Made by a program: the position numbers and the translations under genes. A stretch of 64,000 nucleotides of DNA, taken from Straminergon stramineum. Its lineage: Eukaryota; Streptophyta; Bryopsida; Hypnales; Calliergonaceae. Of this stretch, positions 23,199 to 44,704 are shown piece after piece. The DNA is taken from NCBI GenBank assembly GCA_963920665.1, contig OY987273.1, positions 12,092,501 through 12,156,500 of the forward strand, given 5' to 3'. The notes beneath the pieces are model-generated. The model ran no database searches, was not told the DNA's origin, and saw only the letters and a program-made list of their open reading frames with translations. The first letter of the stretch is position 1. Every line of letters starts with the position of its first letter.

Positions 23199-23396
23199 GC
23201 GACTGCGGGTGGGGCACGTGCGGGTAAGGTGGGGCGACCGCGGGTACCAGAATGAGGGCGACTGTGGGTCCTAAATCCAGGGCGACCGCGGGTCCCAAAA
23301 TGAGGGCGACTGCGGGTCCAAAATCCAGGGCGACTGCGGGTCCAACTCAGGGCGACTGAGGGTGTAAAGGCGACCGCGGGTGTAAGGAAAAGGGCG
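23199..23396 (+). repeat. GC-motif array at the left end of the hAT element
   Basis: Eight or nine copies of GCGACYGCGGGT or close variants (GCGACTGTGGGT, GCGACTGAGGGT, GCACGTGCGGGT), spaced about 18-25 bp, about 210 bp inside the left terminus. The orientation reads inwards. There is no gene between it and the terminus, so a role as subterminal transposase-binding array is plausible. Confidence 0.7.
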
Positions 23397-24264
23397 ATCT
23401 TGGCTTTATCCCATATGCAAGGAATTTCTTTTGTTCCATGGATGATAAGAACTTCTAATATACGACATAAATGCAATTGTCCATCTTTGAAAATTGGGTC
23501 CCAATTCCCAAAAGAGAGATCTCACTGAGTCCTCATACCGGAAATGAGTATTTTTGTGAGGGGAAAGGCAAGTACATCACATCACAAAGTTCCATTGGAG
23601 ATGATTTTCATACTCACTAGTCCATCCGTTAAAGGTTAAGAGCAACCTCGTGTGCCGTTGCAATTGCAAACATGGATATAACAACCATTTCAATCTTGCT
23701 CACGATTTAGGATCCTTCAGTTTCCATGTGCCATTGCATTCTCCTAAGCCTTAAATTAAGTATTTCACATTCTGTGGTCATTCACTCATTCATAGGAGCC
23801 TCCGAGTTCTACATGTTTTTATTACATATGGTTGGGAATTTCTAATTCAAATTTTCTACTCCTATTGAAGTGTAGAAGCCAATATCACAATTGGATATAA
23901 TAATTACACCAAAAATAGATACAAAAACAAGAAAAAAGTAAGGATAATTAGTATTACTGTATTTATAAGTTGTACACACTAATAGAGTAGTGACCCAATC
24001 TTATAAATGAACTTCTACTTCAATTGTACTTCCATGAACTTTGTTAAGATCTCCACGTCTATACCTGTAGAAGTCCACACTAAAGACATTGAACAAAACT
24101 TTGTAATTCTAACACTATCATGCTTTCATACTAAAGTAGATACTACACAAAACTCATCTATAGGCTATTTGCCTATGAACTTAAGCTAGAAAACTTCAAC
24201 ACACCAAAATTATGCAAAAGCATTACATTACCACTTCACTACCTCTAAATCTATATTTATAAAG

Positions 24265-27200
24265 TTACGGTGAAAATGTGTAATCACTAGGCACCTCATC
24301 AGCGTCAGGGTCAGAATCATCATCCGACTCCTCCCCCTTATCATTATTATCACGGTTATCATTCTCGTCATCCTCAGTTTGTACTCGTTCATTTTGCACT
24401 TCATGTTCTACCTCTGAGTTCACGTTCCGCACTTCAGTATCCACGACGCCATCGCCGCTAGTTTGCACCAATCGTTTAGTCAACCTCAATGCATCTCTTG
24501 TTCCATCAAGGTTGGATGCAAGATGTCGTCCGCCTCTACTAGATTGCCCGATGTTTCGATTCGAATTGGCTTCACCCATGATGAATCTTTGGACAACATG
24601 GTTCTGTCGTTTGGGATTTCTTTGTAGCCTCTCTTACGTCTTCCTCAATCGCTTTTTCTGTCCTCTTGTGCCTTCACGCACGAGCAAGGATGATTCTCCA
24701 GGGCCAGAAATAGAGGAGGGTTGAGTGGGTTGCGGAGCTGAAGCATGGCCTTCATTATCAACTGTCCTAAGAGGACTATTATGCAAAGGCGGCCTAGTCG
24801 CACGGGTTGGTATAGACCTAGTCGCCCTAGCATTGTTTGCGTTTCCTCCTCCACTTAAGGGCACCGTACGATTCCGGTTCATAATAGCTTGCAAGGGCAA
24901 GTCTGAATCATATTCCACATTTTCTGTTCTTAAGGGGCTTCGTAATGGAGAAAGTGGAACGCTTGTAAGCACAACATCTTTGACGTGTGTTGGCGGTGTT
25001 GCCTCCTCTTACCATTCATTTACCTCAGGAACTCGAGCAGCACCTCGTAGGTTCATTACCCTTGTAGAACCTTGATCTACGACATTTAGAGATCTTGCTT
25101 CCTCAGCTCTTATGGGCATTGGACTATGTATGCCTTCATTGGGGTTGTCGGGACTACTTGCCCGAGTTGGTGATGAATTTATTGGAGGAGGTACATTCCT
25201 ATCCCTAGCAGAGACGTAGGGTTGCGGGGGCCTTCGCGGTGCACGTTGAATCTCCTCCTCCTCAGAGTAGTACGTATTATTCTCAGCTGTAAATGTATTT
25301 CCATAGTTGTGTCTCCGTGGAGGACTCTTTTCACTACGAATCAGTCCTGTCCAAATATTTCCACGTAGACGCTCTTCTACCAGCCTAATGTTCTCATTAG
25401 CTCGAGCCCTTCTAACTGGGTCGCCATCCCCTGATGATCCTGTACCTAATGGCTCCTCATTCTCTTCCGAGGTATTTCCATCCATAAGGTACTTTTCGTA
25501 GAACACTGTAGGATTGCGTCCACGTTTCTCACGTTCAAGTTTACTGTTGGTGTAGATATACACCAATGCTTCCGCCTTGGATGTGGTTAGGCGATTTCGC
25601 ACTTTATTGTGCACAAACAAATACATGCTCCAATTCCTTTCACATGATGATGCTGAGCACGTCAAAGATAGAATTCTCATTGCAATTTTTGGGAGAACAT
25701 TAGCACCCACAAGATTCCACCATTGATGAGGCATTAGTTTACATTGTGTAATATCAGGAGCCTCTTCTAAGGGGTCAAAAGGACCTGTCTTCTCTTCGAA
25801 CTGCGTGAGCTCCTGCATTGCCTCCATGTATGATAATCCCAATGACTCGCTCATTTTTCGAAGCACCCGATTTAAGGCTCTTTTGGCCACACCGTCGTTA
25901 CGAAGGGTTCCTACTTCAATCAAGAAAGGATTTAAGAGTGCCCCTACATAGTGTAGGTCTGTGAGCATCAATTTCCAACGAGCCTCGAATTGCGTCTCAA
26001 ACTTCGTTGCAGTTTCATCATTCAGAAAAAAAGGTTTGTTTCTCAAGCTCCACACGTGCTCTTGAAGAGTCTTCATAACCAACCAAGCCTTAGGCATTGT
26101 TGGGGCTTTCCCATCAAACACTCGGAGAGCAATAATGACGGGCTCCACCATGTGCAAAAAATTCTCACACTCCACCCAAAAAGATTCCGCATGAATGTCA
26201 TTCCGCGCTATACGGGCTCGTGCACTCAATACATCTCCATTTTGGCGACGTTCCAAATTAGCCTCAAATTGCACATATGTCTCATCCATTATCACTCGCA
26301 TCAATGCTGACTTGCACTCCACCACATGTGATATCATGAGGAAGTTCACTGCAAAGCGTGTTTGAGAAGGCATTCGCAATGCCTTGTCCGGGGAGTACTT
26401 TTGGAAGAGAGCCAATGTGGAATGGTACCTCTTGATGTATTTTACTATCTACGTACAACGTCGTACTATTCTCGTCACCTTGACATCCTTTGCCCAGTCT
26501 TCCAAAAGCAAGTCCAAAATGTGTGATGTGCATCCTTGGGTATACATGTGAGGATATTTCTCTTGTAATGCCTTCAAAGTCCCCGTCATGACAACAGCAT
26601 TGTCCGTACACAGTTGGACAATGTTTTGGGGGCCAACCTCTTCTATGTATTGCGCCATCATATTGGTTGTGTACGCAATGTCCTTCTTCTCCCCCGTGGT
26701 GTCCACCGATCCAAGAAACACATCCCTCGCAGGACACACGAGCATTAAATTTAGTAATGGACGGCTATTAGTATCAGACCAACCATCCGAACAAATAGTC
26801 GCTCCATAAACTTCGATAAAGTGCTTTGTCCGCTCAGTGACCATTTTAGAAACACTTTCTTTCTTTGGCTCTATCATTCTTGTACGCAAAGCATTGTATG
26901 AGGGCGGTTGGTATCGTAGTCCTGATGCCGCTGTCTCTTTTACTGCTTTCACAAAGGCAGGATGGCGCGCAACATTGAATGCGATGCTAGCCTCATAAAA
27001 AAAGGAAGCCCACATGGTATCTAACTTTGCTCTCGTGCTACTTTGTAATGCCTCATCCATGCTAGTTTGCCTAGAAATGGAAGGGTTATTCCTCCTTCTC
27101 AAAATTGTTTGAGGAGTGGAATCTCCTGAATCTGTAATAGGGAGCATTGGTTCATTCGTAGCACTAGGCTCCTCTAACCTCTCCCTATCCCCCTCCAACA

Positions 27201-27542
27201 TAGGCTCAACCACAGTCTCGTCTACAACATCAAATTCTGGAACCTCCTCATGCATTTGTTCAAAGCTCATTTCCTTTGGAACAACCCCACCACAAGTCCT
27301 GAACTTTTGCAATACTGCCCATGGGATTTTCTTACATCGCTCCGATGCAGTCCTGCCGCCAAATCCAAAGTGACAAAATGCCCACTTCGTACAAATACGG
27401 AGGTCCACCCACAGAAAACACATGTTCGTGTGTTTCCCGCAAATTGACGGTCAATGTCTACAACCAACCAAGGGTCCCACTCCTTCGTGGCTCTCCTTGT
27501 ATCGTTAATGGTAGTCCTCCTCCCCTCACCCCGACTAGCCAT
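24265..27542 (-). pseudogene. hAT transposase (BED finger, DUF659, hAT dimerisation domain), nearly intact
   Basis: The N-terminus (from 27,542, CVFCGW) and the next part (FGFGGRTASERCKKIPWAVL) form a BED-type zinc finger joined by a frameshift near 27,370. From 27,423 one frame continues. A DUF659 region holds CSDGWSDTNSRPLLN and LCTDNAVVMTG, and the C-terminal hAT dimerisation region holds SASSCERNWSMY. The three acidic positions (D in SDGW, D in TDNA, E in CERNWS) match the hAT DDE triad. A TAG at 26,449 lies where CAG is likely. TAA at 25,009 is followed in the same frame by about 740 nt of protein-like, acidic, disordered sequence with another TAA at 24,634, ending at 24,265. The C-terminus was therefore probably longer once. 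It is the only transposase in the hAT element and lies near its left end. Function predicted from family; activity is doubtful with these breaks. Confidence 0.85.
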
Positions 27543-27865
27543 ATTGTTCCTCGCCTATGAGTTCTTCAAACAATATTATCATATGAATCAAAGCCTTGAT
27601 TTAGAAAAAAGAATGGCAAAGCCACTTGCTTTGAACGGTCTTTTAAACCACACAAACCAAGTCGTTGCCCTCCAAAGAACCAAACATCCGCAAGAAGCCT
27701 CTTTCGAAGATTCAAGGCAAGAGTTCATCCTTGAAGCAAGGTGAAAACCACAGTCCGGGCCTTCAGCTTTATACTGCCGTCCTGCTAGCACCGCAAGTCG
27801 CCCCCTGAGAGCCAGAATGGGTGCAAGAAACGGGCGACATCGTAACAGGTACACTCGCCCCGTGG

Positions 27866-28240
27866 GTGACTGCGGGTCGACGGTTTGCACTAGGAGCACG
27901 CATGCAGATCAAAGGGCGACCGCGGGTTCAAGGGGGGCGACTGCGGGTCGAAGAAGAGGCAATTGCGGGTCCAAGGAGGGCAACTGTGGGTCGAAAAAGA
28001 GGCGATTGCGGGTCCAAGGGGGGCAACTGTGGGTCGAAAAAGAGGCGACTGCGGGTAGAAAGAGGCAACCACGGGTCTGGGGGGGGGCGACTACGGGTCC
28101 AGGGGGGGATGACTGCGGGTCTAGGGGGGGCGACTGCGGGTCCAGGAGGTGCGACTGCAGGTCCAAGGGGGGCAACTGCGGGTAGAAGGGGGCGACCGCG
28201 GGTCTCAAGAGGCGACTTCGGGTACTTGAAGGGTGACCGC
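27866..28240 (+). promoter_or_regulatory. GC-motif array upstream of the hAT transposase gene
   Basis: About 15 copies of GCGACYGCGGGT-like motifs (variants GCAACTGTGGGT, GCGATTGCGGGT) at irregular 20-28-bp spacing, 5' of the minus-strand transposase. Read in gene orientation the motif is ACCCGCRGTCGC, as upstream of the other four hAT genes. Long ORFs across it on both strands are artefacts of the repeat. Confidence 0.65.
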
Positions 28241-29122
28241 GCTTACGCTTTAGGACCCAAGGCCATTTTTGTTATCCCGTTAGCGTTCCATCGCAGAGTT
28301 TCTAGATGAAAGTCATCCTAGTTTAGATAGAGATTTTATTAAACCCTAAACACTATCCAAGGGGTTCACGTGGTATTTATAGATACTTCAAAAAAAGATT
28401 TTCGGGAGTATGGTCATAGACTTAAGGAATGCAATTTTTTTTTTAAACAACCACATGAAGGGAAACTCATTTCAAATCCATTCCAACAAACTTAATAAAA
28501 AATAAATAGAATTAGCTTGTACTCAAATGTGGAAAAAATTAAGAACTTTCTCTTTCAAATTAAAAAGAAAAATGGGGGACAACATTGGTTGATCAAACCA
28601 TATACATGGAATCCACAACTCAAAATGTATAACTTCCATTTCTCTATCAATTCCAAAAGTATTCTTTTGAGTACCTTTTTAGGATGTTTTTTCCCAAATT
28701 ATAAATCTCAAGAAGAATCCATACATTCACAAGGTGAAGGGCATGGGAATGTTGTCATTTACAATATGTTCAAACCATATGTTAAAATACTGAAAAATGC
28801 AACCATATAAACTTATATTGAAACTCTCATGGATGATGCAGCTTAAATTTATTGAGGGTTCTTTGTGTAGACTCAAAGTTACTAGAATTCTTTTCTTTTT
28901 TAAAACACTACACAAATTTAACAAGAAATTAACATTCACATAACTTCAAATCATCAAAATTTGTCAAAAATTCAAATGTTTGGATCCAAATGCAATCACA
29001 TTTTCATACACAAAAAATAAAAATAAACATTCTTGTATTTCAGCAAAAATAAGGACAAAGCCTTTTTCTTCATATATCTTGGAAGAAGTACATAGTCATA
29101 AAAGAAACAAGAGCCACCTAAT
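28241..29122. other. Gene-free AT-rich spacer in the hAT element
   Basis: Between the transposase-side array and the 3' end of gene A. AT-rich; no ORF with family resemblance. Nothing further seen. Confidence 0.5.
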
Positions 29123-30682
29123 TTATACTCCATCCATTTCCCCTTGTTCTTCCCTTTTCTTCTTTTCCAATTCTATTTGGGCTCTTGCCACTCTCTCTTC
29201 CCTCTTCAAAAGAGTCAGGTCATGGTTCCACATCTTATTTTGGATCCACCACTTCTTGAACAATGACATGAACCTGATGTGTGCCTTCGGCCACGACATC
29301 TTTTCCTCCAACTTTTGTTCCAATCTTTTCACAGACGCTAACTTCATCTTCAACTTCTCTATTTCCGTAGTGGATGATGAATCTTCAACATCCACAGACA
29401 ATGAATCCGATTGCAACGACCGGTCAATAGGATCTGCATCCTTCATCTCCTTCAAGCGGTTCAATGTCGATCTTGCCTTTTCCACACCTCCTTTTTCAAT
29501 GGCAAGGTTGTTTTCTTCCATCCTACATTTTCCCATTATTGTTTGAAGTCGTTCATCCATAACAGGATTGACATTTGAACTAGAACCTCCATCTTCTCCC
29601 TTATTGAACTTGAGGTAAAATTGTTCCAGTTGTTCCATTTCTCTTTGTTGGGCTGCCAAACGAGTTTGTCCAGCTTGAATTAGTTCTTTGAGGGTGCCCA
29701 CATCCTCAACCTGAATCTCTTGTGCGCTTCGCTTCTCGATGATCTCACACTCCCTTTCTTTTTCTTCAAGATCCTTTAAAAGCATCTCCAACTCCACTTT
29801 ATAGGATTCTTTCGTTCGCCGTTTATTGTCTTCTCCAAGTACACCTTGATGTTCTTGTTCCATTTCACGCAATCCTTCCATGGAAGGCAAATTCATCAAG
29901 GTCAAAGGAATCTCTTCTTCGGCTTCACTCTCCCCATCCAACCTATCTTCATTAATTTCTTGCAAGCGAGCTTGCATGTAATGGAACACTTCGTCATCTT
30001 CAGGAGGACGGACGCCTATCGATTCCACAGACATAAAAGGTTCTCCATCCGTTGGTGTGGTCCGTTGCATGTTGCCTTCTTCAGAGACCACCAATGCTAA
30101 GTTTTCTTCCATTGATGTATCTTCCATCCTGTCCCTAGGTTCAGGCAATGGCTCTTCATCGGAGTTCGATTCTCCAGTTGACGTTGACCAAACATAATCC
30201 TCATCTGCCACTCCTTCTATAATGTTCTTTTTGGGCCCTAGCCCTTCTCGAGGATTATTTGAAGGACCCGCTCTTGGAATGTCTTTTGTAGTTGGAAGCG
30301 TGACATTCTTGGATGTCTTGAAGGTCATCCAATCTACCGTTTTCCCCAATTGTAACTCTACATATACCATTTGGCATATGCCCATTGAGACTTCGCTCCG
30401 TGGAATTTTTCGCTTTCCATACAATGCTTGATACACTTCGATACATCTCTAGACAAATGCATCATCCTTGCAATAATGAAGATTTGCTTGGTTTTGCTTC
30501 ACATGGTGAATGTGTCGATGGTAAGGGAAGAGCTTGTCGATATGGCACCAATCCACAAATAACTTGCAAGTCGTTAAGGTCCAATCGGAATTTACATGAC
30601 GCCATCCCCGATATGCCTTAGCTGTTGGGTCAAGAAGGGCGCGTTGTTGCCTACTATGGCAATCTCCTTTCTTCTTCGTCAT
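29123..30682 (-). pseudogene. hAT cargo gene A: coiled-coil protein with the shared WCHIxKLFP domain; one in-frame TAG
   Basis: One frame of about 519 codons, from ATG 30,682 (MTKKKGDCHSRQQRALLD) to the stop at 29,123, broken only by TAG at 30,449-30,451. The homologous positions in genes B and C read AFLQRCIE and GFILRCCE, so the lost residue was probably Gln (CAG to TAG). Residues 20-115 form the shared domain: GWRHVNSDW, FVDWCHIDKLFPYHRH, KQNQANLHYC and LGKTVDWMTFK. A long acidic middle follows, then a predicted coiled coil (YKVELEMLLKDLEEKEREC) with heptad-like Leu/Glu patterns. An upstream GC-motif array lies at 30,897-31,333. Function unknown. The basic N-terminus and conserved Cys/His residues suggest a DNA- or zinc-binding domain (inference). 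Confidence 0.7.
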
Positions 30683-30787
30683 CTTGTCGTGTCACTCTAG
30701 CGTAAAGAGAACTAGACTTTTGTTGATAATATAACCGAAGAAATGAACTCGTAAACGTGGAAGCCACAACACATGTAGATGCCCAAA

Positions 30788-30835
30788 CTTCCAACCCACG
30801 AACCGGCAGTCAGACGCTTCAAGGCGGATGAAAGG
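30788..30835 (-). promoter_or_regulatory. Conserved block between array and start of gene A
   Basis: Read on the minus strand: TTTCATCCGCCTTGAAGCG, then TCTGACTGCCGGTTCGTGGG. The same block, with few changes, lies between array and ATG of the kinase gene (36,148-36,190) and gene B (38,486-38,520). Conservation in non-coding DNA at the same relative place suggests a core promoter or leader element. Confidence 0.45.
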
Positions 30836-30896
30836 CGCGGTGCGATGAAGGAAGTGACGACTTGGGAATCCAGTATCCCCTTAAATACCCAAAGTC

Positions 30897-31333
30897 GCCT
30901 AGGGCGCGTGTGAGAAGAGGGCGCGTGTGGGTCTTGGGCGACTGCGGGTCTGGGTCCCACTGTTCAGAAACTGCCATTCAGGAAAAATTACAGTTTCTGG
31001 AAGGAGACCTCGGGTGCAGGGTGACCGCGGGTATAGGGGGGCGGTTGCATATGGCGACCATAGGTCTTTTCCTAGGCGACCTCGGGTAATGGGGCGACCA
31101 CGGGTACAAGAGGCGGTTGCATATAGGGCGACCACAGGTCATTTCTTGGGTGACCGCGGGTAATGGGGCGACCGCGGGTACAGGGGGCGGCTGCATATAG
31201 GGCGACCACAGGTCATTTCTTGGGCGACCGCGGGTAATGGGGCGACCGCGAGTCTCAGATTCCAAAAGGTCTTCCCCAGTTCATGACGATGGGAGCGGCT
31301 GCATATGGGGCGACCTCGGGTCAGGGGCGTCCA
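30897..31333 (+). promoter_or_regulatory. GC-motif array upstream of gene A
   Basis: About 17 copies of GCGACYGCGGGT-like motifs, mixed with GCGCGTGTGGGT forms. Several sit in a larger repeat with GGCTGCATATAGGGCGACCA (about 62-65 bp). Orientation relative to gene A is ACCCGCRGTCGC, as for the other genes of this element. Confidence 0.65.
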
Positions 31334-31393
31334 CGGGTCAGGAGCGCCAAAAAACATGAGTTTGAGTTTCCGCCCTAACAAATTGAGAGAAGG

Positions 31394-31755
31394 CATGGTT
31401 GTTTGGCAGAACAACTCGACAACATGACGAACACGACGTCCAACACGTCTAGTAGACCCCCTTGTCCGTCTAATAAAGTCACCTTTAAGGTTGACTTTCA
31501 AATAAAACACTTTCTATTTCCAATCTTGACATATTTGAGTTTCATTTTATTGAAGTGTCTCAATTTAATAATCACTTATTACATTCTTAATTATGGATCA
31601 TAAATAAAATGAGATTTCAAATTATCTCTGCTGTTAGGATAAGGCTTTATTCGTCAAAATTGTCATGTATACACGACACTCGTCTTGTACGACACGCGAC
31701 ATCAGACAAACAACTCGACACCCAACCCCAAAATGTGTTCGACAGAACAACCCTA
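31394..31755 (-). mobile_element. Non-autonomous hAT derivative (MITE-like), inverted inside the large hAT element
   Basis: 362 bp. The left end CATGGTTGTTTGGCAG and the next 100 bp match the right end of the large element. The right end (reverse complement TAGGGTTGTTCTGTCG) and about 105 bp match the large element's left end. It is flanked by AGAGAAGG and AGGGAAGG (7 of 8 identical), an 8-bp duplication. It is thus a short internal-deletion derivative of the same hAT family in opposite orientation, with no coding capacity. Confidence 0.8.
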
Positions 31756-31897
31756 AGGGAAGGTGTTCAAACTTTTCAAGTACCGCTCCCCCCTTTTCTG
31801 AGGATTAACTCCAGAAAATTCTAAAAATGAGGCATTCAAGACAAAGTGATCAAAAGTTCATTAAGTAATAAAGAAAGAGAATTGGTTGACGAAGTGG

Positions 31898-32600
31898 AGA
31901 GTTGGAAAAGCCCTTCTTCCTAACATTTTATTTCTTCTTCATCCATCCATGTGGTCATGTAAAATTCAACGTAACCATTTCCTACTTTCATTTTTGGAGG
32001 GAGTACATTAAAAGGAGACCTTTCCTTGTGGGGGGAAACGATATACAAATAAAATACTGAAACTGTGGGATGCATGAAGAAAAAATCTTTTTATCTACAT
32101 CAAAAGTGGTTTTAAAAAATGGAGACTTGGGAAAGCTCTTCTCCTTGACATTTTCTTTTTCCGCATGCTCATGTAAAATTCAACATGACCATTTCCTATT
32201 TTAATTTTTAGAGGGAGTACATTTGGAGGAGACCTTCTCTTTGGGGGAAATGAATAAATGATGTACAAAAAAAATACTAACACCATGAGATGCATGAAGA
32301 AAAAATCTTTTGATCTCCATAAGAAATGGTTTTTAAAAATGGAGGCTTGGGGAAGCTCTTCTCCTTCACAATTTTTTTTTCTTCGTGCTCATGTAAAATT
32401 CAACATGACCATTTCCTATTTTAATTTTTAGAGGGAGTACATTTGGAGGAGACATTCCCTTTGGGGGGAAACGATGTACAAAAAAAATACTAACACCATG
32501 AGATGCATGAAGAAAAAATCTTTTGATCTACATAGGAAGTGTTTCTTAAAAATGGAGACTTGGGAAAGCCTTTCTCCTCGTCATTTCATTTTCCATCTTT
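31898..32600 (+). repeat. Tandem repeat, about 215-bp unit, three copies and a part
   Basis: Units begin near 31,898, 32,120, 32,341 and 32,553. Each has GACTTGGGAAAGC, CATGTAAAATTCAAC, GGAGGGAGTACAT and GATGCATGAAGAAAAAATC in the same order. The minus-strand ORF at 32,095-32,295 falls in one unit and is not considered a gene. Confidence 0.75.
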
Positions 32601-32880
32601 AAACATAGGAATTTGAATAGGGTCCTCCTCTTGATACATCAAGGGGATTTAAAACACATTTGAAGGGGTGAATGAATATTGAATTTATTGAAGATTAAAA
32701 AGTTTGGAAATGACACCTTCAATGGTTTATATCTTACAAGTGCAAGGTTTAGGAGTTCAAACTTTTTTATGACATATAATGAAAAGCAAATCACATATGT
32801 TTATCATTTTATCCACCCTAAAAAATAGAAGTACATTACTTTTGGGGTGGCATACATGGAGAAGGTCCATGGTTTTTCTA

Positions 32881-32930
32881 TAGGGTTTAGGATATAGGGT
32901 TTAGGGTATAGGGTTAGGGTTTAGGGTTTG
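32881..32930 (+). repeat. Interstitial telomere-like repeats
   Basis: About six units of TAGGGTTTAGG and variants (TAGGGTATAGGG). Plant telomere-like, degenerate, inside the hAT element. Confidence 0.6.
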
Positions 32931-33127: not shown

Positions 33128-34410
33128 AAGATAGAGGCGATTGCTGGTGGGGGGCGACTTCAGGTCCTGGGCGACTGCGGGTAGGTGCTTGGTCTTCTCG
33201 CTTGGTGTTGTTGAGCCCAGTTCGGTGGAATGGGGCGATTGCGGGTGGGGGGCGAGTTCAGGTTCTGGGCGACTGCGGGTGGGGATTGGATTTCTGGCTT
33301 GTTGTTGTTGAGCCCAATTTGGTGGAATGGGGTGCGACTGCGGGTGGGGGGCGAATTCAGGTCTCGGGCGACCGCGGGTAGGGGCGACTTCAGGTCCTGG
33401 TGGTTTCGAGGCCAATTTGGTGGATTGGGGGCGACTGCGGGTAGGGGGGCGACTTCAGGTCCTGGGCGACCGCGGGTGGGGGCAACTTCATGTCCTAGTG
33501 GTTTTGAGGCCAATTTGGTGGATTGGGGGCGACCTCGGGTGGGGGGGCGACTTCAGGTCCTGGGCGACCGCGGGTGGAGGCAACCTCAGGTCCTGGTGGT
33601 TTCGAGGCCAATTTGGTGGATTGGGGGCGACCTCAGGTGGGGGGGCGACTTCAGGTCCTGGGCGACCGGGGGTTGGGGCGGCTTCAGGTCCTGATGGTTG
33701 TGGAGGGCAGTTTGGTGGAATGGAGTGCGACTGCGGGTGGGGGGCGAGTTCAGGTCCTGGGCGACCGCGGGTGGGGGTCCTGGTGGTTTTGAGCCCAATT
33801 TGGTGGATGGAAGGGCGACCGCGGCTTGGGGGTGACTTCAGGTCCTGGGCGACCGCGGGTGGGGGCGCGGTCTTCTGTTTTGGTGGTTTCCAGACTAATT
33901 TGGTGGAGGGGGGGGGGGCGATCGCGGCTTGGGGGCGACTTCAGGTCCTGAGTGACCGCGGGTGGGAGCGCGGTCTTCTGTTTTGGTGGTTTCCAGACTA
34001 ATTTGGCGAAGGGGGGGGGGGCGACCGCGGGTGGGGGCGACTTCAAGTCCTGGTGGTTTCGAGCCCAATTTGGTGGATGGAGGGGTGACCGCGGCTTGGG
34101 GGCGACTTTAGGTCCTGGGCGACCGCGGGTGGGAACGCGGTCTTCTGTTTTGGTGGTTTCCAGACTAATTTGGCGGAGGGGGGGGGCGACCGCGGGTGGG
34201 GGGCGACTTCAGGTCATGGGTGACTACGGGTGGGGGCGCGGGCTTCTGTTTTGGTGGTTCGAGCCTAATTTGGTGGATGGGGGGGGGGCGACCGCGAGTG
34301 GGGTCCGACTTCAGGTCATGGGCGAGCGCGGGTGGGGGCGACTTCAGGTCCTGGTGGTTTCGAACCCAATTTCGTGGATTGGGGGCCGACCGCGGGTGAG
34401 GGCGTGCCTT
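33128..34410 (+). repeat. Higher-order GC-motif array (about 100-bp repeats)
   Basis: Roughly 12 diverged units of about 95-100 bp. Each combines two or three motifs (GCGACYGCGGGT, GCGACTTCAGGT) with the spacer CCTGGTGGTTTCGAGGCCAA and TTTGGTGGATTGGGGG. One motif variant, GCGACTTCAGGT, occurs mainly here. No gene follows in the orientation expected from the other arrays. It may be an expanded array or a satellite born from one. Gly/Arg/Trp-rich and Pro/Arg-rich ORFs across it on both strands are repeat artefacts. Confidence 0.7.
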
Positions 34411-34511
34411 CTAATCCAAAGAAGTTTTAATAAGTATAACGAGTTCAACTTTTAACATCCAAGAACAAGTCACTTCATTAGGACCTTGGGGTCTTCAAGG
34501 CATCTTCGGGT

Positions 34512-35900: not shown

Positions 35901-36126
35901 ACCCGCGGTCGCCCCCACACGAACGGTCGCCTCCATCCTCGAGGACCTCTGGAACCTGCAACCGCCCCCTCCCGCGGTCGCCCCAACCCGCAGTCGCCCC
36001 TCCCGCGGTCGCCTCCATACCCGCGGTCGTCCCATACCCGCGGTCACCCATTTCGCATGCGCTAGACACGCACGCGCCCCAAGGCGACCTCGGGTACTTA
36101 AGCAGTCGCCCAGACCCGCGGTCGCC
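35901..36126 (-). promoter_or_regulatory. GC-motif array upstream of the kinase gene
   Basis: Nine or ten motifs reading ACCCGCGGTCGC or ACCCGCAGTCGC on the plus strand, that is, in the direction of the plus-strand kinase gene. Relative to the arrays on minus-strand genes the array is inverted on the map, yet it has the same orientation with respect to its gene. Confidence 0.7.
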
Positions 36127-36147
36127 ATTCTTGGTCTTGCGCATTGG

Positions 36148-36190
36148 CTTTCATCCACCTTGAAGTGGCTGAATGCCTGCTCGTGGGCCA
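36148..36190 (+). promoter_or_regulatory. Conserved block between array and kinase start
   Basis: CTTTCATCCACCTTGAAGTG and GCTGAATGCCTGCTCGTGGG follow one another here. Closely similar blocks precede gene A and gene B. It lies about 85 bp upstream of the ATG at 36,273, so it may mark the core promoter or transcription start. Confidence 0.45.
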
Positions 36191-36272
36191 AGGTGATTTC
36201 AGAAGGGGAAGTTTTTGCCCATTTTTCTCTCCAAGTTCAAGTCAAGAACGCCTCGTTTTTCAAAAGAGGACC

Positions 36273-37862
36273 ATGTCTACTTCAAAGGAAGGAAGTAGTA
36301 CGGGTCGGATATCGGCTTGGGAGAAGGACCTTGATAATCCTGCAGCATTTGTTGTAGATATAACTACCAAGGAGGTAATTGGGGGTGCCAGACCATCCAA
36401 GACAAAGAAGTCCAAGACAACACACGATAAGGACCCTACCTATCCTCCAACACGATATACGACCTATGCACATGAGGCTTGTCTCCAATGGTATGAGGAA
36501 AAAAGTGTACAATATTTGGAGAGGAAATACTTGAGAAATAAAGAGGCAGGCATCCAATCCTTGAAGGATGAGTTGGAGGAATTTATTACAAGGAAATGCA
36601 AGGAATCTTCGGACTATGCAGATGTGGATGAAGTGTATTTCAACCAATGGCAAACGTGGATTGGTAATTGCCTACAAACTGGTATATTCAACACCAAGAA
36701 GTTGATGCTTGAGTTGCGACCTATAGTGCCTAGATTTGGAGAAACGGATAGGGCCCAGGAGTTTCGTGAGAAGATGGATTGGTGGCAAATTGCAGCAAAA
36801 AGATTGTCAAGGTCTGAAGCTAGGGGTATGGGGTGGTAGACAGATGCATTGAAGGCTGCATTTACAAGAGATAGTGGTTCATGTATCATGTGGGTCTACT
36901 CAGAGGCCAAGGTGGTCCCACTTACTAGATTTGACCGTCAAGGAGGATATGCAAAGGTGCGCAAGGTACGCATTGAAGGGATGTCCATGATCCCAGCACA
37001 TGTACATTTCGCGGGGAAATTGTCAAAGCAAAGGAACAAACGTGATGCGAGGGTGGAACGGTTAGTGGAGGCTTTGGTATGCCCATTGAATCATCCGGCC
37101 ATTATTAAATTCCTAGCTGTCCATGACCAAACAATGGAAGCATACACTTTGTGGTGGAATGGTGGTAATTTCAAAGAGTTGCTTCATTTGAATGAGAAGG
37201 TGGTGTCACATGCGGATTGGCATGAAATCAAGTTGGTCAAGCAACTTACAGGCCAGCAACAAAAGGAAATTAGCCTCTTTTGAAGACACAAGGCGAAGTT
37301 GGTGTGGGCCCTGGTTTATGTGACAAGTCTCGTGCACAATGCTGGGGTGCTGCACAATGACTTGTCACCTATGAACATATTGTTGCATTATCCCCCCTTC
37401 TCGGACGAAGAGGTCAACATTGGGATTTGTGATTGGGGAATTGCAAGTCGCATTCAAGAAGGAGCTCCCTCGCATTTTGGATATGAAAAACAGGAAAAAC
37501 TTGATGCTGAGAGGATGGGCCGTTGGTGGGCAGCTCCAGAGTTGTTCTATTTGTTTGGGCCAGAGGGTTCAGATACGAGTTTAGATGTGATGAAAGTGAC
37601 CTACAAATATTCGGTGAAGTCCGACTCTTATTCCATTGGAAAGTTGACCCAACGCATGAACATAGAACACATGGTTGAATACGACAAGGACTTATTTAGA
37701 AATCATGAGTCATCAAGGTATTTTGCCATGAAGTTACGTGAACTAGTTGATGTTGATGTTAACAAAAGACCAACATGTGCGCAAGTGGTGGACCTCCTCA
37801 TGGGTAAACCATGGTTCATGAAACCACCCGAATTCGTCTTTCGGGACTCTGTCCTCTCATAG
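36273..37862 (+). pseudogene. hAT cargo: protein kinase gene with two in-frame stops
   Basis: One frame of 529 codons from ATG 36,273 (MSTSKEGSSTGRISAWEKDL), broken by TAG at 36,837 (codon 189) and TGA at 37,281 (codon 337); both sides of each stop are protein-like. The N-terminal 190 residues are not recognised. The kinase domain follows, with a degenerate Gly loop (RQGGYAKVRKVRIE, about 222-235), catalytic loop HNDLSPMNILL (about 361), DWG in place of DFG (about 384), WWAAPELF in place of the APE motif (about 419) and RPTCAQVVDLLMGKPW near the end. The catalytic Asp and Asn and the metal-binding Asp are present. Substrate unknown. The conserved block and GC-motif array lie upstream. Kinase genes are not normal parts of hAT elements, so it is captured or specialised cargo (inference). 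Confidence 0.7.
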
Positions 37863-38141
37863 GATTTGATGTAATAGTTTTCTAGTGGGAATAGTAACGT
37901 TGGCCACCTTATGAGCATCTCATTTTGGAAAAGCAATGCAAGTGTATAAACTATTTTTAATGTGAAGTGCATGTTTGGACCCAAAATATGAGTATTGTAC
38001 AGACACATCACCTACTTGCATGCATTGGGTTTGAATATGAATTCTTTGCATGGTTCATTTGGGGGTAAGTCAATCTAATTGTTAAGGCAATCTAATTTCA
38101 CTATTCAGTGAAGGTATGTGCCTTTGCGGTCGGGGGTTTGG

Positions 38142-38433
38142 GACCCGCGGTCGCCTTACACCCGCACGCGCCCCCAGTCGCAGTTGCACCAGACCCGCAG
38201 TCGCCCAGGCCCGCATGCGCCCCCCAGTGTGCGTTCCCCTCACCCGCGGTCGCGCCAGACCCGTTGTCGCCCCACCGTACCCGCAGTCGCCCCCAGACCC
38301 GCAGTCGCCATCAGCCGCGGTCGCGGGCGGTGGTCCTAAACCCGCGGTCGCCTTCCCGACCTGCACGCGCCCCCCCCTTGGACCCGCACGCGCCCCATCC
38401 AGAGCCGTGCTCGCCCTGAGGCGACTGCGGGTA
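38142..38433 (-). promoter_or_regulatory. GC-motif array upstream of gene B
   Basis: About 14 motifs, mostly ACCCGCRGTCGC and the second subtype ACCCGCACGCGC, in places alternating; the last one (38,419) is inverted. They point in the direction of gene B, as in the other arrays. The Pro/Arg/Ser/His-rich ORFs here are artefacts. Confidence 0.7.
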
Positions 38434-38485
38434 CAAAATCAGACCCTAAACCCGTAGTCTCTCATCTTTCCCTTTTGCGCCTTGT

Positions 38486-38520
38486 CTTTTATCCACCTGG
38501 AAGTGGCTAATTGCAAGCTT
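38486..38520 (+). promoter_or_regulatory. Conserved block upstream of gene B
   Basis: CTTTTATCCACCTGGAAGTG then GCTAATTGCAAGCTT, similar to the blocks before gene A and the kinase gene. It is about 230 bp upstream of the ATG at 38,752. Confidence 0.45.
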
Positions 38521-38751
38521 GAGAGGGGAGGTGGGTGTTGTGAGGAGGATATTCTATGTCTCCTCATGTCACTTTCATCCATTGATTGTAAATCACACCG
38601 AATTGTTTGAAACTTGATTGTGATTGTAAATGCTCATGTTGATGTATTTGTAAATGTGAATTACCACGAGGTAATAGATTTGAGTTTGGACAACCACGGT
38701 TTTAGGCTTGGTATATTTGGCATAGTATCCGAGTAGAATTGATCGTATAGA

Positions 38752-40224
38752 TTGAGCACTATGGAGAATGAGCCCCCACCATTGACGCCTGCCACAATCA
38801 AACGCCTTACACGACAAGAGATGAAGCTCATCCACGACAAGGGTCGGAAACGGTCCGGTAAAATTCACAAGAAGCGTGTGGCCATTTTGATCCATCCAAA
38901 GATTAAGGCATTTAAAGGTTGGAGAAATGAACCTGAGCCTTGGAGTTACAAAACCGTTTGCAAATACGTGGATTGGTGCCACATCAGCAAATTATTTCCC
39001 TTGTGTCGGCACAAAGAGCATTTGAAGCAAAACAAAGTAAATCTTGCATACTCCAAAGATGAGGGCTTCATACTTAGATGTTGTGAGGTGTGGAAGCACT
39101 TGTATTTGGAGGACTCAACTTACCGAAACGACAATTTCTGTTTCTTTCTTGTGAGAATGGTGTATGCTGAATATGTATTGAAGAAGGAGGTGGATTGGTC
39201 AACATTGAAGGAGGTCCCTATTACAATCATTCCAGAGACTGCAAAAATTTTACCACCAGATGAACCTGTGGATGTAAAGAAGATGTTATCCAAGGTGAAG
39301 CGTGGGAAGTCATTTGTTCACGATGAAAGCGTGGTTTGGTCAGAGACTTCTAGCTCTGATCTACACACCCATGAATACGATGGACATTCTTTCCACAGCG
39401 ATGAGGAGGAGGTTGCCATACAAGAATCTAGGCTGGCTGTGGATGTGGGAGTTGACCAAAGTGGACAATCAGCTCAAGAGCCCATCATAGTACAAGATAC
39501 GGATGAAGAAGGCATGGATGATGGGGTGGCTAGGAAAGTGGACCCCGTTTTGCGAGAGGGTGACGGGAGTGGTGGAGGAAGCAATTCAGAAAATGAAGAG
39601 GCAATGTTGCTTGCCAAAATAGAAAGTGCAAAATTAGCATTGCGTGCAAAGAACGAGCAATTGAAAACTTTGAAGGAGCAAGAAATGAATCCCACTTTCG
39701 TAGAGGTGTTGAAGCAACGGTTGAAGGCCATAACGAACGTCATCGAAGAGAATGACAAGGGCTTCCATTCCTTCAAAAGAAATCGCGATTTTTATTTGAA
39801 GGAAATGAAGAGTGGGAAGGTGCATAAAATGGACCATTATTTGATATGGGAATCAAAACTCGAAACCCTTGTCCGCAAACGTCAGCAGGCAGAGAATGAA
39901 AGGCGAAGCCTAGAACTTCAAATAATAGAGAAGAAGAAAGAATATTACGAGGCTGCCGTCCAGCACGTTCCAAAAGTAGAGCTTTTGGCTTCTTCCTCAA
40001 CATATGGTAGTGTTGCTAGAGAAGTAGCAACGCTTGAGAAGTTGGTGAAGTTCCATGAGCAAAGATTACCATTGATGGTATCGGAGTTGGAAGGTTTGAG
40101 GGCAGAAAGTCAGGTTTTTTCGGATTGGTATAAGTGGAATAGAGCTAGCATAGGGAAGTCTGATGCAGAATTACAGCAAATGGGTCCGGAGCCCATTTTG
40201 AAGGACTACCTCAACACAAAATAA
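38752..40224 (+). CDS. hAT cargo gene B: intact coiled-coil protein with the shared WCHIxKLFP domain
   Basis: The only long uninterrupted cargo ORF (490 residues). In frame, MSTMENEPPPLTP opens at the first ATG; the codon printed at 38,752 is preceded by GAGCACT and the ATG is at 38,761. The shared domain spans residues 20-150: a basic stretch (KGRKRSGKIHKKR), FKGWRNEPEPW, YVDWCHISKLFPLCRH, KQNKVNLAYSKDEGFILRCC and YVLKKEVDWSTLK. An acidic linker follows, then a long coiled coil over about 285-450 (IESAKLALRAKNEQLKTLKE and onward). No catalytic motif is visible. It is likely a dimerising structural or DNA-associated protein (inference). GC-motif array and conserved block upstream; AATAAA at 40,317. 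Confidence 0.75.
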   Translation: MSTMENEPPPLTPATIKRLTRQEMKLIHDKGRKRSGKIHKKRVAILIHPKIKAFKGWRNEPEPWSYKTVCKYVDWCHISKLFPLCRHKEHLKQNKVNLAYSKDEGFILRCCEVWKHLYLEDSTYRNDNFCFFLVRMVYAEYVLKKEVDWSTLKEVPITIIPETAKILPPDEPVDVKKMLSKVKRGKSFVHDESVVWSETSSSDLHTHEYDGHSFHSDEEEVAIQESRLAVDVGVDQSGQSAQEPIIVQDTDEEGMDDGVARKVDPVLREGDGSGGGSNSENEEAMLLAKIESAKLALRAKNEQLKTLKEQEMNPTFVEVLKQRLKAITNVIEENDKGFHSFKRNRDFYLKEMKSGKVHKMDHYLIWESKLETLVRKRQQAENERRSLELQIIEKKKEYYEAAVQHVPKVELLASSSTYGSVAREVATLEKLVKFHEQRLPLMVSELEGLRAESQVFSDWYKWNRASIGKSDAELQQMGPEPILKDYLNTK

Positions 40225-40316
40225 AATACCTAGGAATACAATGAGGATAAATACTTTCATCATGATTATTTTGTATTTTGCCTATCCTGGTGTTCTAAAG
40301 AAATGCAATGTTTTCA

Positions 40317-40322
40317 AATAAA
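40317..40322 (+). terminator. Polyadenylation signal of gene B
   Basis: AATAAA 93 bp after the TAA stop of gene B, within TTTTCAAATAAAACAATG. The distance and context are plausible for a plant near-upstream element. Confidence 0.4.
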
Positions 40323-41477
40323 ACAATGTATATGGTGTCTTGAAGCAATGTGTGTACTAGAATAGTTAAATTGGTGTGGGCACACTAGTGGTGTGCATGG
40401 AAGGGAGAAAATGCCACACCATTTTGGGATCTTACAACTTTTCTATATGGATGAATATGTCTCTCTCATGTTTTGGGAGAAGGTGATGGTATGATGAATG
40501 GAATGGGATTCTTGCACATAATTACAATCGAATAGGAACATGGGATTGATGGGAAGTTCTTGATTCTTGACTGTAAAAGTTGACATAGTATTTTCACTAT
40601 TTTGTGAGAATGTCATCATGAAATCTACAGTACAACTTGTATTAATGATTTTCATATGAATAGTGGAGGACGAAAAACCAATTATGCCCCAAATACCATA
40701 TTAATCGAGGAAATTTATTGAGCTTATTTGTCTCAGGTGATTTGCTGCATTGTTCCTCCTTGTATGTAGGATTTTTTAGAATTCTAGCTTTAGCGTAATT
40801 TGAAGAAAATTACAATGGATATTGAGGAATTAGGTAGGTTTTATATGTAAGTTGGCCTACTAATGTTTTTTATGAATTTGAATTTTGACCTCCAAGGACA
40901 GGGTGAACCATTTGAAGGTATGGTAATGTGAAGTCAACAAGTCAACATCCACGAAAAGGGGCATGTTGTATTTGAACCCCTTTTATTCCTTCTTTGGCCA
41001 AGTATCTTGAAAGCTTAGAGGAAAAGCTTCGTATAATTAGAACCTCACGATTTTAAAGAATATGAAAGGAAATATCCAATTGGACAATGATGCTCCACTC
41101 TAGTGAGTAGTGACCTAGTTTTCTTCTCAATGCAAGTGAAATTAATTTGAAAAGTTCAACTTTAGGAGCTTTGTTGATTTGATTCATACAAACTATTTTT
41201 GGAAGAACTCGAAAAGATCATTCTCGACATGATTTCAGAAATTGGTGCTTTGGTAGAGAGGAAAAAAAGGTAGTATTAAATAAAAATCAATGCCATATGG
41301 AATTGCCGTACATAGGTATGCTAGGAAGTCGTAGAAGTGGAATGAAAGAAGCAAACCCTAAACCACTCCATCGTACTTGCCAAAACAACTAGAAACATAG
41401 TGTAACTAAAACCTAACCCTTACTTGTCATCTATTATGATGGGAGGTAAGGCTAAATTGCATGATTCCTACGAATGT
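40323..41477. other. Gene-free spacer between convergent genes B and C
   Basis: About 1.15 kb of AT-rich DNA between two genes that end towards each other. I see no repeat or ORF worth naming. Confidence 0.5.
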
Positions 41478-43970
41478 CTAGTCAATTACATTTGGGTTGT
41501 TTTGAGAGCCACTTCCTTCACCTTCTTCGTAGGTCGATGCTTCCCCAACCCCTAGCTTTCGCTTTGCACGGGTTCGTGAAGCTGGTCCGTCTGCCTTCAA
41601 AATTGATTGCAACACGTTGGAGTCCTGTAGAGCTTGGAGGGTCCTTGTTGTTTGCGGAGAATGTGCTTCCAACAAGTAGTCAAGTGCTTGACTTTGGTAA
41701 TATGGTCCGTACGTAGAGTCCAGGTAAGCCATACTAGTCAAGTCTTCTAGGGAGGCACTATCATCTTGATTAGCCACCCTTTCTCCTTCTAAATTCCAAC
41801 GATGTCGTTGCGGATGAGGACCCCACTTGAAGGTTGAGGAGGTCTTGTCCCAATATCCACCAAGGCATTGGAAGAAGAATGCCCTCCTCCCTTCGTTTTG
41901 TGGCCCCTTTCCCATGAGCCTTGGTGCAACTCTGGCAATTTCGTCTGGGTCTGTTTCCCAATTCAATTGCGAGCTAGCAGGTCCTTTTTCTTGATCATGT
42001 TGTCCTTCTCGCCAACTCCAAACCAAATCTCGGCCCCACAAGGTTGTGTCAGCCGTAGTATCACGTGTGTGTTCCCAAGAAGGAGGCATGTAGGTCGTCA
42101 AGTTGAACATGGTATATAGGCGATCATGGAATGGTGCTGAACAAATCACACAACGTCGTCTAATCAAGCATTGTGTGATGAGACATTGGGGGTGGTATAC
42201 ATGCACACAAGATCCTAGTGCCCAACCCCCTTCGGGGCCAAATTGTTCAAGACATATTGGGCATTTGGTATGGTCCAAAACAAAAGGTGCAGGCTTGGGC
42301 CACAATAGCATTCGTTTCTTCTCTTCTATGTGGCTAGACATTTGGTTTTGGTGGTCCCAACTATTTTTGCTCCAATCTATGACCTCCTTTTGTGGCAATT
42401 CCACCATGCACATGTTATTGGGAAACATGTCCTCCAACAATGCCCATGACGTCAGTCCATTCTCACGTTTAGGAGCATTTGCAACAAAGTTTCTAGAAAC
42501 TTTCTCTAGCTCCTTCGCAATTTGTTGGGATCTATCCACAGAGAGAATGCAGGCGACCTTCCAATGGTAGTATGTGGTAGTCAACTCAGCCAACTTTCTT
42601 CGAAGCATCTTATTTTCTTCTTGAAGTCCATGGTCTTTCTCCAATTGAATAATTGATGGAACCACAGGAAACGAAAGAGAGTCTTGGGTCCCATTGAGGT
42701 CAATTGTGTCATTGGTAGTATATCTTGTGACAATAGTAGGAAGTGTATTTGGAATGATGGGGGAGTGTCTAGTGTGCTTGGCAAGAGGAGAACGCTGAAG
42801 GATATGGTTGGTAAGGTCCCCCACAACCTTGTCCACATTTTGGAGGTTCTGCTCAACAAAGGCGTCATCCATATCCGACAAAGTGAAAGTGTCAGGGTCT
42901 TTCTCACGGAGGCGTTGCAGTTCTATAGTTTGTTGAGAGATGAGTGTACTTTTTTGTTCACACTCACATCGCAATTTCCTCATTTCATTCTGTAGTGAAG
43001 AAATTTCAACATCTTTGGTCTTGAGGAGGTCCAGAGCTTTTGCCAAAGTCATAATGTCATGGCTTGAGCCCATTGTTGATGGAGAAATGGGAACACAGTG
43101 AGTTTCTTCCATAGCCATGTCCTCATCGGGCCCAAAGTCGAAGACGTCATTTGTGCGCTGTGTTGGCAGTGATGGGTTAGGAACTATAGTTGGAATCGAT
43201 GCGGGTCCCACTCGTGTTGTTGAACGCCGTACTCTAGATGGTTGCCTTGGTCGTTGTCTTGTGGATGTCGCGGGTCCTTCTACAACTTCATTTTGAACCT
43301 CATTGGGGCAAACAGATTACTCCACGATTCGTATGACCCTATGGACGCGCGTACCATTAGAGTCATCATCTTCTTCAGACTCCTCAGTGTCAACCTTAGT
43401 GGCAGGGGTTTGCGTTTTGTATGCACTTCGAATAGGACCGAGTCCCCCCTCAGGAAAAGCTAAAACTCCTTTTGGGATGAAACCACTCTCTGGACGAGTG
43501 ACATACATACTTCCCTTGATTATGCTCCAATCAACCTCCTTGTTTAGAGCGACCTCAGCATATGCTCCTCTAGCAAGGAAGAGGGGGACCTCGTTCCTAT
43601 CTACAAAGGCGGTTTTGTAGAGGACTTGCCACAATTCAATGCATCTTTGAAGGAATGCTGGATTCTCACAATACTTCAAGTTGGCCTTATTGGAGTGCCG
43701 ATTATAATGATGACGCCATAAAGGAAAGAACTTGCCGATGTGGCACCACTCGATGCAATCTTCGCAGGTTTGTATTGTCCAAGGCTCTGGTTCTTCATTC
43801 CAACCCTTAAAAGCAAGGTGGGCTTCACTATTGAGCACGTGCAATCGCTTCCGATGAATAGTGCCCCTACGCTTGCGATGTTTGTCTTTGGCAACCTTCC
43901 GTAATGCCCCGGCGGTCTGTGCAACTGCGGAGATAGGCAATGCCCTGGCATTGTTAACTCCAGTGGCCAT
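41478..43970 (-). pseudogene. hAT cargo gene C: RING-H2 protein with the shared WCHIxKLFP domain; one in-frame TAA
   Basis: One frame of about 830 codons from ATG 43,970 (MATGVNNARALP), broken only by TAA at 43,317-43,319 (codon 218) in a linker. The shared domain is at residues 40-160: RKRRGTIHRKR, FKGWNEEPEPW, CIEWCHIGKFFPLWRH, NKANLKYCENPAFLQRC and LNKEVDWSIIK. Central coiled coils follow. At about residues 570-612 is a RING-H2 finger: CPIC, then CVHVYHPQC, then CVIC, giving C-x2-C...C-x-H-x2-H-x2-C...C-x2-C with all ligands present. The C-terminal region (WGRDLVWSWREG, FFFQCLGGYW) is not recognised, and a basic RTRAKRKLG lies near the end. RING-H2 proteins are usually ubiquitin E3 ligases, so it may act as one (inference). 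The GC-motif array at 44,165 lies upstream. Confidence 0.7.
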
Positions 43971-44164
43971 CAATGATTGTCGTGTCCAAGGCTCAAAAAA
44001 CTCTTTTGGGAGTTTAGGTGGTCCACAACTACTAAGGTAAGAAGGGTGGATGAATGTAATAAATAGTAAATAGTCAAGGTTCACGCATGTAGCCACTAAA
44101 GGATACAAGACAAGAAGCCTCAATGAAAGGTGCCCAAAAGGTCTTGGGCGAGTGGATAAATAGA

Positions 44165-44704
44165 TGGGGCGAGCGCGGGTGAGAGTTGGTCATGGGGCAC
44201 GTGCGGGTGGGCAACCACTGGTTGAACCCGTGGTCTCCAGGGGGCACGCACGGATCTTGGGGAGCGACTACGGGTTTGGTAGGGCGCATTCGGGTTCGAG
44301 GAGGCGACTGCGGGTCCAAGGGCGTGTGTGGGTCCTGGGAGGGGCGACCTCGGGTACAAGGGCGCGTGCGGGTCTTTTGGGGGGCGACTACGGTTACAAG
44401 GGCGCATGCAGGTCCTTTGGGGGGCGACTGCAGGTCTTTGGGGCGCGTGCGGGTGCCTTGGGAGGCGACTGCGGGTCTTTGGGGGCGCGTGCGGGTCCCT
44501 TGGGAGGCGACTGTGGGTCTTTGGGGACGACCACGGGTAATTGTGGGGCGTTACTTCTCTTTGGGTTCTCACTTCGTGTCTTTGCTTCGCAGCTTGCCAC
44601 GTACTCGACACCCGCGGTCGCCCACCAACCTGAACCCGAAGTCGCCCTACCCGTGGTCGCCCGTACCCGTGGTCGCCCAAACCCGAGGTCGCCCACACCC
44701 GCAT
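44165..44704 (+). promoter_or_regulatory. GC-motif array upstream of gene C and beside the right end of the hAT element
   Basis: Up to about 44,540 two subtypes alternate: GCGCGTGCGGGT and GCGACTGCGGGT, each followed by spacers such as CTTTGGGG. From 44,604 the motif is inverted (ACCCGCGGTCGC, ACCCGTGGTCGC; six copies). The inverted part reads inwards from the right terminus, mirroring the array at the left terminus, while the first part has the orientation typical for the minus-strand gene C. Confidence 0.7.

Follow-up and report, generated by a model that had tools for sequence, protein, structure and literature searches.

Oriented motif arrays at the promoters and ends of a giant moss hAT element suggest a private, changeable DNA code

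VANDAL elements belong to the Mutator-like superfamily. One of them, VANDAL21 of Arabidopsis, is a multi-gene DNA transposon with an anti-silencing protein, VANC21; in the accounts drawn on here, the VANDAL/VANC system involves a short motif present in dense, one-orientation tandem arrays in non-coding regions, and related families have a different motif (PMC5735166; PMC10398659). The CACTA elements En/Spm and Tgmt* are described, in the portion of the source used, as having subterminal repeats that are bound by TNPA, include a GC-rich part, lie near both ends and are family-specific; CACTA deletion derivatives that keep the cis sequences are moved in trans (PMC2613891). Among hAT elements, subterminal repeats and short terminal inverted repeats (TIRs) are on record for Ac/Ds, Ac being 4.6 kb long (PMC3260210), and for Hermes (PMC10368747), as far as these excerpts go.

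A 64,000-nt stretch of the genome of the moss Straminergon stramineum (the window) was found to contain an element of 21,907 bp with five genes, at positions 22988-44894 (no strand assigned). Its boundaries, determined by Blast, are common to other copies. The termini, CAGGGTTGTTC on the left and GAACAACCATG on the right, include short TIRs (CAGGGTTGTTC / CATGGTTGTTC), and their inspection revealed an 8-bp target-site duplication (TSD), CACTACAG, at 22980-22987 and 44895-44902 (both on the plus strand). Six of the seven copies examined at both ends (those of the window, C1b, C1c, C1d, C1e and C1g) had a perfect 8-bp TSD, those of C1c and C1e being found after adjusting the ends by eye; no TSD was seen for the seventh, C1a. 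The transposase matched PF05699 (hATC; 1.3e-07) and PF04937 (DUF659; 1.6e-34), both above the curated cut-offs, and relatives carry the same domains. With its hAT dimerisation domain, hAT-type transposase and short TIRs, the array-bearing element belongs to the hAT superfamily. It does not have the Mutator-like transposase of VANDAL elements, a Pfam scan of the transposase pieces having returned DUF659 and hATC only; nor does it have the CACTA termini and 3-bp duplication of CACTA elements, its termini being CAGGG/CATGG and its TSD 8 bp long. A nested insertion of 362 bp with related termini was recognized at 31394-31755 (no strand assigned) by Blast and its termini, flanked by AGAGAAGG and AGGGAAGG (7 of 8 positions).

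The transposase gene region, with DUF659 and hATC, lies on the minus strand at 24265-27542 (from Pfam matches, stops and ATG; the 3′ end is uncertain); in the window copy it is broken by stops plus a frame change. The N-terminus of the transposase is zinc-finger-like. Genes A (29123-30682, minus strand), B (38761-40224, plus strand) and C (41478-43970, minus strand), delimited by their open reading frames and ATG, each encode a so-called WCHI domain, for which a fold search returned no match whatever. Gene C, for which profile matches were also used, additionally encodes a RING-like finger: RING models match it below the Pfam cut-offs, and a family profile matches RING chains. The kinase gene (36273-37862, plus strand) was assigned from a Pkinase match, open reading frames and ATG. 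In the window copy, genes A and C each contain one in-frame stop, and in-frame stops interrupt the kinase reading frame.

The arrays consist of a 14-bp motif, GGGCGACYGCGGGT, with sharp edges. Allowing one mismatch, 77 sites were observed in the window against 0.06 expected, all within eight arrays of this single element; at this threshold none was found in the five gene bodies or in the window outside the element. Genome-wide, 5341 exact matches were counted, compared with 13 for the reversed pattern. As the original prediction stated, an array lies upstream of each of the five genes. The motif scan located these arrays at 27866-28223 (transposase; 16 plus and no minus sites at ≤2 mismatches), 30938-31338 (gene A; 13 plus), 35901-36125 (kinase; 7 minus, 1 plus), 38143-38461 (gene B; 12 minus, 1 plus) and 44169-44538 (gene C; 12 plus, 1 minus), their main orientation being plus, plus, minus, minus and plus, respectively. 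Three further arrays have no gene and hold 48 of the 112 sites: one at the left end (23199-23381; 8 sites, all plus), one at the right end (44610-44708; 6 sites, all minus), neither having an element gene outward of it, and the largest of all, which the original prediction omitted, at 33137-34397 (34 sites, all plus, with a 98-bp period). The 3′-3′ gap between genes B and C contains no motif site. The absence of a gene from the largest array (33.1-34.4 kb) counts against the reading favoured below.

Read on the strand of the gene, the motif in the five gene-upstream arrays is ACCCGCRGTCGC at 41 of 43 sites (≤1 mismatch) and at 60 of 64 sites (≤2 mismatches). The orientation had been expected to be invariable; it holds but for four single inverted copies, one each at gene A (30887, minus), the kinase (36084, plus), gene B (38421, plus) and gene C (44226, minus). 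Over the whole element, 108 of the 112 sites follow the orientation of their array, and these dense, same-orientation arrays are confined to non-coding DNA, with no site in gene bodies. At the level of arrays the agreement (5/5) is statistically weak, because five arrays are few and genes A, B and C have a common domain.

The spacers vary from array to array, as anticipated, with main periods of 16 to 98 bp and a single common core; a plain satellite, with motif and spacer alike in one unit, does not fit arrays that differ in periods and spacers while the core stays constant. The claim that the motif is more conserved than the spacers stood among the repeats within one element, in a half-motif test, but not between recent copies, for which non-CpG differences were 0.044-0.057 in the core and 0.048-0.055 in the spacers; copy-to-copy comparison detected no extra conservation of the core in young copies. 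The arrays as a whole diverge more between young copies than does the remaining element. Outside the arrays, CpG sites differ between copies at 0.146-0.177 versus 0.018-0.022 at other sites, a high divergence that would be as expected of methylated DNA. Four gene-free derivatives of 3.2-4.0 kb were also identified, which have lost the genes and the core promoters; each retains 41-66 sites, and all four have the same end orientation. Their match to the 27.9-28.2 kb region is weak (68-72%, with one short piece at 86%) and may reflect motif likeness only.

At three genes the inverted motif joins a TATA-like stretch, followed by a common start region 65, 65 and 66 bp past the motif start for gene A (30806-30899, minus strand; TATTTAAG), the kinase (36083-36176, plus strand; TACTTAAG) and gene B (38420-38514, plus strand; TACAAAATC), respectively. 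Similarity scores between start regions were 50 (A-kinase), 50 (kinase-B) and 23 (A-B), equalled by 0, 0 and 14 of 500 shuffles; in the control, one non-gene pair (left end and middle) likewise scored high (1 of 500 shuffles). The kinase shares this region with genes A and B although no similarity was found between its coding part and either gene. Gene C shares it weakly. The transposase promoter (27764-27805, minus strand), in which an inverted motif-like GGGGGCGACTTGCGGTG starts 27 bp before GGCAGTATAAAGCTG, does not share it. With 15 copies of TATAAA in the element, a TATA word near an array means little on its own.

A divergent relative at C1:7499931-7534075 (transposase 38-42%, gene C 33-47% and kinase 32% identical) carries another motif, GGGCRYGGACTY, in a similar layout. 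At ≤2 mismatches, 8 plus and no minus sites were found at its left end, 11 plus and no minus before its minus-strand transposase, ending just before TATATAAA, and 4 plus and 1 minus between gene C and the kinase. The right-end sites are weaker, with none at ≤1 mismatch, a single minus site at ≤2 and five minus sites at ≤3, no plus site being found at any of these thresholds. At ≤3 mismatches the other zones are less clean (16 plus and 1 minus at the transposase; 8 plus and 4 minus between gene C and the kinase). The latter array is common to divergent genes, gene C on the minus and the kinase on the plus strand; read for the kinase, it would break the orientation rule. Cross-occurrence at ≤2 mismatches is low: the window motif was found once in the relative, and GGGCRYGGACTY six times in the window element. 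No motif array was seen in a second, decayed relative (C1:700001-740000), so a change of motif between related families is documented for one pair only.

The moss element resembles VANDAL21 in being multi-gene, in its dense, one-orientation tandem arrays in non-coding DNA and in the different motif of one relative; unlike VANDAL21, it has a hAT transposase, other proteins, an 8-bp TSD and a longer, GC-rich motif, and its arrays precede every gene and occupy both ends. It is like CACTA elements in having, near both ends, a repeated motif that includes a GC-rich part and differs between families, and derivatives that keep the cis sequences; it differs from them in its hAT termini, its 8-bp TSD and the arrays that also precede five genes. 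With Ac/Ds and Hermes it shares hAT identity, short TIRs and subterminal repeats, but compared with Ac at its described 4.6 kb, it spans 21.9 kb, holds five genes and has arrays far inside.

A cis-regulatory or protein-binding system, as first proposed, fits these data better than a plain satellite; it cannot consist of promoters only, because arrays also occur at both ends, in the gene-less middle and in gene-free derivatives. We moderately favour the view that the arrays are platforms binding an element-encoded protein, at promoters and ends, with motif and protein turning over together. Each array would be bound by a sequence-specific protein that the transposon itself encodes, the candidate reader being the transposase, through its zinc-finger-like N-terminus, or a WCHI-domain protein. 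The array before each gene would be the upstream part of its promoter, and one protein might turn all five genes on or off, or de-silence them, jointly as a regulon. The same sites at both ends would be subterminal repeats marking the DNA for transposition in cis, and the gene-free derivatives, by keeping arrays, would ride on proteins made elsewhere. Tandem duplication would multiply the sites within an array, and joint change of motif and protein would yield a private code for each family. What the sequences show directly is the position and orientation of the arrays, the promoter module common to three genes, the arrays at the ends, the derivatives and the other motif of one relative; what we infer is that a protein binds the arrays, which protein does so, its role in activation or anti-silencing, and its co-evolution with the motif.

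A special case of the binding-platform reading, possible if somewhat doubtful, is VANC-like anti-silencing, in which an element protein (e.g. one with a WCHI domain) would bind the arrays and remove DNA methylation from the element. It agrees with the combination of dense one-orientation non-coding arrays and motif change between related families reported for VANDAL/VANC, in the part of the source cited (PMC5735166), and with the CpG divergence outside the arrays; the failure of the fold search to match the WCHI domain speaks against it. Rather unlikely, though compatible with the other readings, is that the arrays are recombination hot spots that yield non-autonomous copies. The junctions of the four gene-free copies do fall in plus-oriented arrays, at about 23.3, 31.2, 34.0-34.4 and 44.2-44.4 kb, but these copies have nearly the same junctions and so probably derive from one inherited event, and hot spots would explain the derivatives, not the placement at promoters.

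It seems improbable that the arrays, at the ends and inside, are nothing more than repeats to which the transposase binds, as in Ac or En/Spm, with a role in transposition and a secondary placement at promoters. The outward-facing arrays at both ends of the window element, also seen in one relative with weaker right-end sites, and the sites retained by derivatives without genes and core promoters would suit it; arrays that lie before all five genes and as far as some 11 kb from the nearer end, and three genes in which an inverted site with a TATA-like stretch keeps a fixed distance from a common start region, do not. Equally hard to credit are non-functional minisatellites, in which slippage spread a GC-rich word and orientation came from duplicating one ancestral promoter with its array: the homologous promoters of genes A, kinase and B, from which orientation could be inherited, the lack of visible selection on the core in young copies and the tandem structure throughout are set against a sharply bounded 14-bp core amid varying periods and spacers, and a different motif in similar layout in one relative.

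The arrays before all five genes and at both ends, together with the different motif in similar layout of a distant relative, suggest that the element labels its control regions in a DNA code that is private and open to change. More tentatively, and on balance short of what we would assert, this giant moss hAT may have evolved a private self-recognition code independently of VANDAL and CACTA, an element protein reading the arrays at all promoters and ends, controlling or de-silencing the whole element, and turning over together with the motif. If so, arrays for sequence-specific self-recognition, already known from two other superfamilies of plant transposons, would have arisen in hAT too and would there structure an entire regulon of several genes. 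Where one genome contains families that differ in their motif, these would then be natural pairs for locating the specificity domain and following the co-evolution of motif and reader.

Blast comparison of the window with other stretches of the same genome revealed common sharp boundaries at 22988 and 44894, delimiting a 21,907-bp hAT element with genes for a transposase, a kinase and the proteins A, B and C. Its ends are CAGGGTTGTTC and, reversed, CATGGTTGTTC, and the 8-bp duplication CACTACAG flanks it on either side. The transposase contains DUF659 and a hAT dimerisation domain, both over curated cut-offs. Few of its 87 relatives carried an organism name; these included the mosses Ceratodon purpureus (three) and Physcomitrium patens (one), and a Primulina eburnea protein, 28% identical. 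The host is accordingly likely to be a moss. The closest of the 87 (P0020, 55%) is labeled as a Bacilli bacterium MAG, probably through contamination. The element also includes three 220-bp tandem repeats (31955-32594), which are mostly retained in gene-free derivatives and in which no ORF of 100 aa was found. Beyond the element lie two DUF7869 ORFs on opposite strands (10645-11931 and 61370-63076; E about 1e-44), probably belonging to another repeat family. The sequences at 46959-50327 and 54142-58467 recur several times in C1:11110001-11170000 (76–87% identity; C1 is a contig of the same genome).

Allowing at most one mismatch, the window contained 77 sites of the motif GCGACYGCGGGT, where shuffles predicted 0.06; all 77 lay within eight arrays, and none in the five gene bodies or in the window beyond the element. 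At up to two mismatches, all 112 sites were inside arrays. The genome (326 Mb, 59 contigs) held 5341 exact matches, versus 13 for the reversed pattern. The original prediction placed an array upstream of every gene, and this was found for all five: the transposase (16 sites at up to two mismatches), A (14), the kinase (8), B (13) and C (13). The arrays are not exclusively gene-linked, however, since three others, with 48 sites together, precede no gene: one at the left end (8 sites, all plus), one at the right end (6, all minus), both reading outward, and one at 33137-34397 (34, all plus) that the prediction had omitted. The orientation, proposed to be fixed, was largely so: the gene strand read ACCCGCRGTCGC at 60 of the 64 gene-linked sites (up to two mismatches), the four exceptions being single inverted sites at A, kinase, B and C. 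In some arrays (44360-44708, 38143-38393), the main motif and a second form, GGGCGCGTGCGGGT, occur in alternation.

At A, kinase and B the inverted site is directly joined to a TATA-like stretch, and a common start region begins 65, 65 and 66 bp, respectively, past the start of that site. The word TATAAA alone proves nothing, as it occurs 15 times in the element. The array-free promoter parts were compared by local alignment, with 500 block shuffles as control. The pairs A-kinase and kinase-B each scored 50, a value reached by none of the shuffles; A-B scored 23 (14/500 as high). The promoter of C was weakly similar (B-C 21/500, A-C 42/500, kinase-C 47/500), and that of the transposase was at chance against A, kinase and B (418/500, 229/500 and 471/500), with 26/500 for transposase-C. 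Pairs involving gene-free stretches were mostly at chance, the exceptions being left end versus middle (1/500) and B versus middle (26/500). In the transposase promoter, an inverted motif-like word that carries an indel begins 27 bp ahead of GGCAGTATAAAGCTG. The kinase coding part showed no similarity to genes A and B; the promoter module is thus common to unlike genes.

Loci of other copies were taken from the first 100 of the 5341 matches, all on C1, so the sampling is not genome-wide; 99 fell within the compared stretches, C1:415565 being left out. Four sampled copies bear genes (C1a, C1d, C1f and CH). Where these parts are retained, the promoter modules of A, kinase, C and transposase were found again, with a kinase spacing of 49 in C1d. 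The B module was found in C1a but neither in C1d nor in C1f and CH, which are partial copies. The other four (C1b, C1c, C1e and C1g; 3.2–4.0 kb) are gene-free, yet each retains 41–66 sites (plus/minus 63/3, 59/4, 60/4 and 37/4), the minus sites lying at the right end save an extra one inside C1e. Their junctions fall in plus arrays and are nearly identical, so these copies may descend from one event.

The motif had also been claimed to be more conserved than its spacers. Information content was 0.8–1.9 bits at positions -1 to 12 and 0.05–0.68 at neighbours. Because such a profile depends on choosing sites by the motif itself, a second selection used a single half of it; the unselected half was still conserved, and conservation fell at the motif edge. 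This supports the claim, but three young copies do not: at non-CpG positions core (0.044–0.057) and spacer (0.048–0.055) differed equally, so no selection is visible since insertion, and the rest of the element lay below both (0.018–0.022). CpG differences were higher throughout (core 0.135–0.166, spacer 0.189–0.216, rest 0.146–0.177), an excess compatible with methylated copies.

Copy C1d is inserted within gene C of a divergent relative at C1:7499931-7534075, which measures about 13.6 kb when the insert is discounted. The termini of this relative are CAGGGTTGTCATA / CATGGTTGTCATA, and its duplication is ATGGTTGC / ATGGTTGT (7/8 matching). Its transposase, gene C and kinase are 38–42%, 33–47% and 32% identical to those of the window element; no separate gene A or B was found. 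It bears another motif, GGGCRYGGACTY. At up to two mismatches, plus/minus counts were 8/0 at the left end, 0/1 at the right end (none at up to one mismatch), 11/0 ahead of the minus-strand transposase, where the array stops just ahead of TATATAAA, and 4/1 between the minus-strand gene C and the plus-strand kinase; four of the 29 sites lay elsewhere, two within gene C. At this stringency, approximate block shuffling of a comparable stretch yielded 3.3 sites on average as the expectation, and 10 at most. At up to three mismatches the right end had 0/5, the transposase zone 16/1 and the gene C/kinase zone 8/4. At up to two mismatches the window motif occurred once in the relative, and GGGCRYGGACTY six times in the window element. 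A second, decayed relative (C1:700001-740000) yielded no motif array. With one relative bearing an array and one without, there is thin support for motif turnover as a rule.

Proteins A, B and C have a common WCHI domain, found in at least 18 relatives of gene C; a fold search gave no match for it. A further relative of the domain (L033, C1:11285254-11285598; 24–29% identical) adjoins a gene-bearing copy. Titles and abstract openings, in a search that left most subscription papers outside, described no hAT element with a motif array ahead of each gene. The element itself is neither a CACTA nor a VANDAL, since its termini, duplication and transposase are hAT. In two known systems, TNPA of CACTA elements acts on subterminal repeats (PMC2613891), and VANC of VANDAL elements acts on same-orientation motif arrays, which differ among related families (PMC5735166, PMC10398659). 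The simplest account of the arrays, which we modestly favour as the best explanation, would resemble both systems: a putative protein encoded by the element would recognise its own family's motif at the element's promoters and ends.
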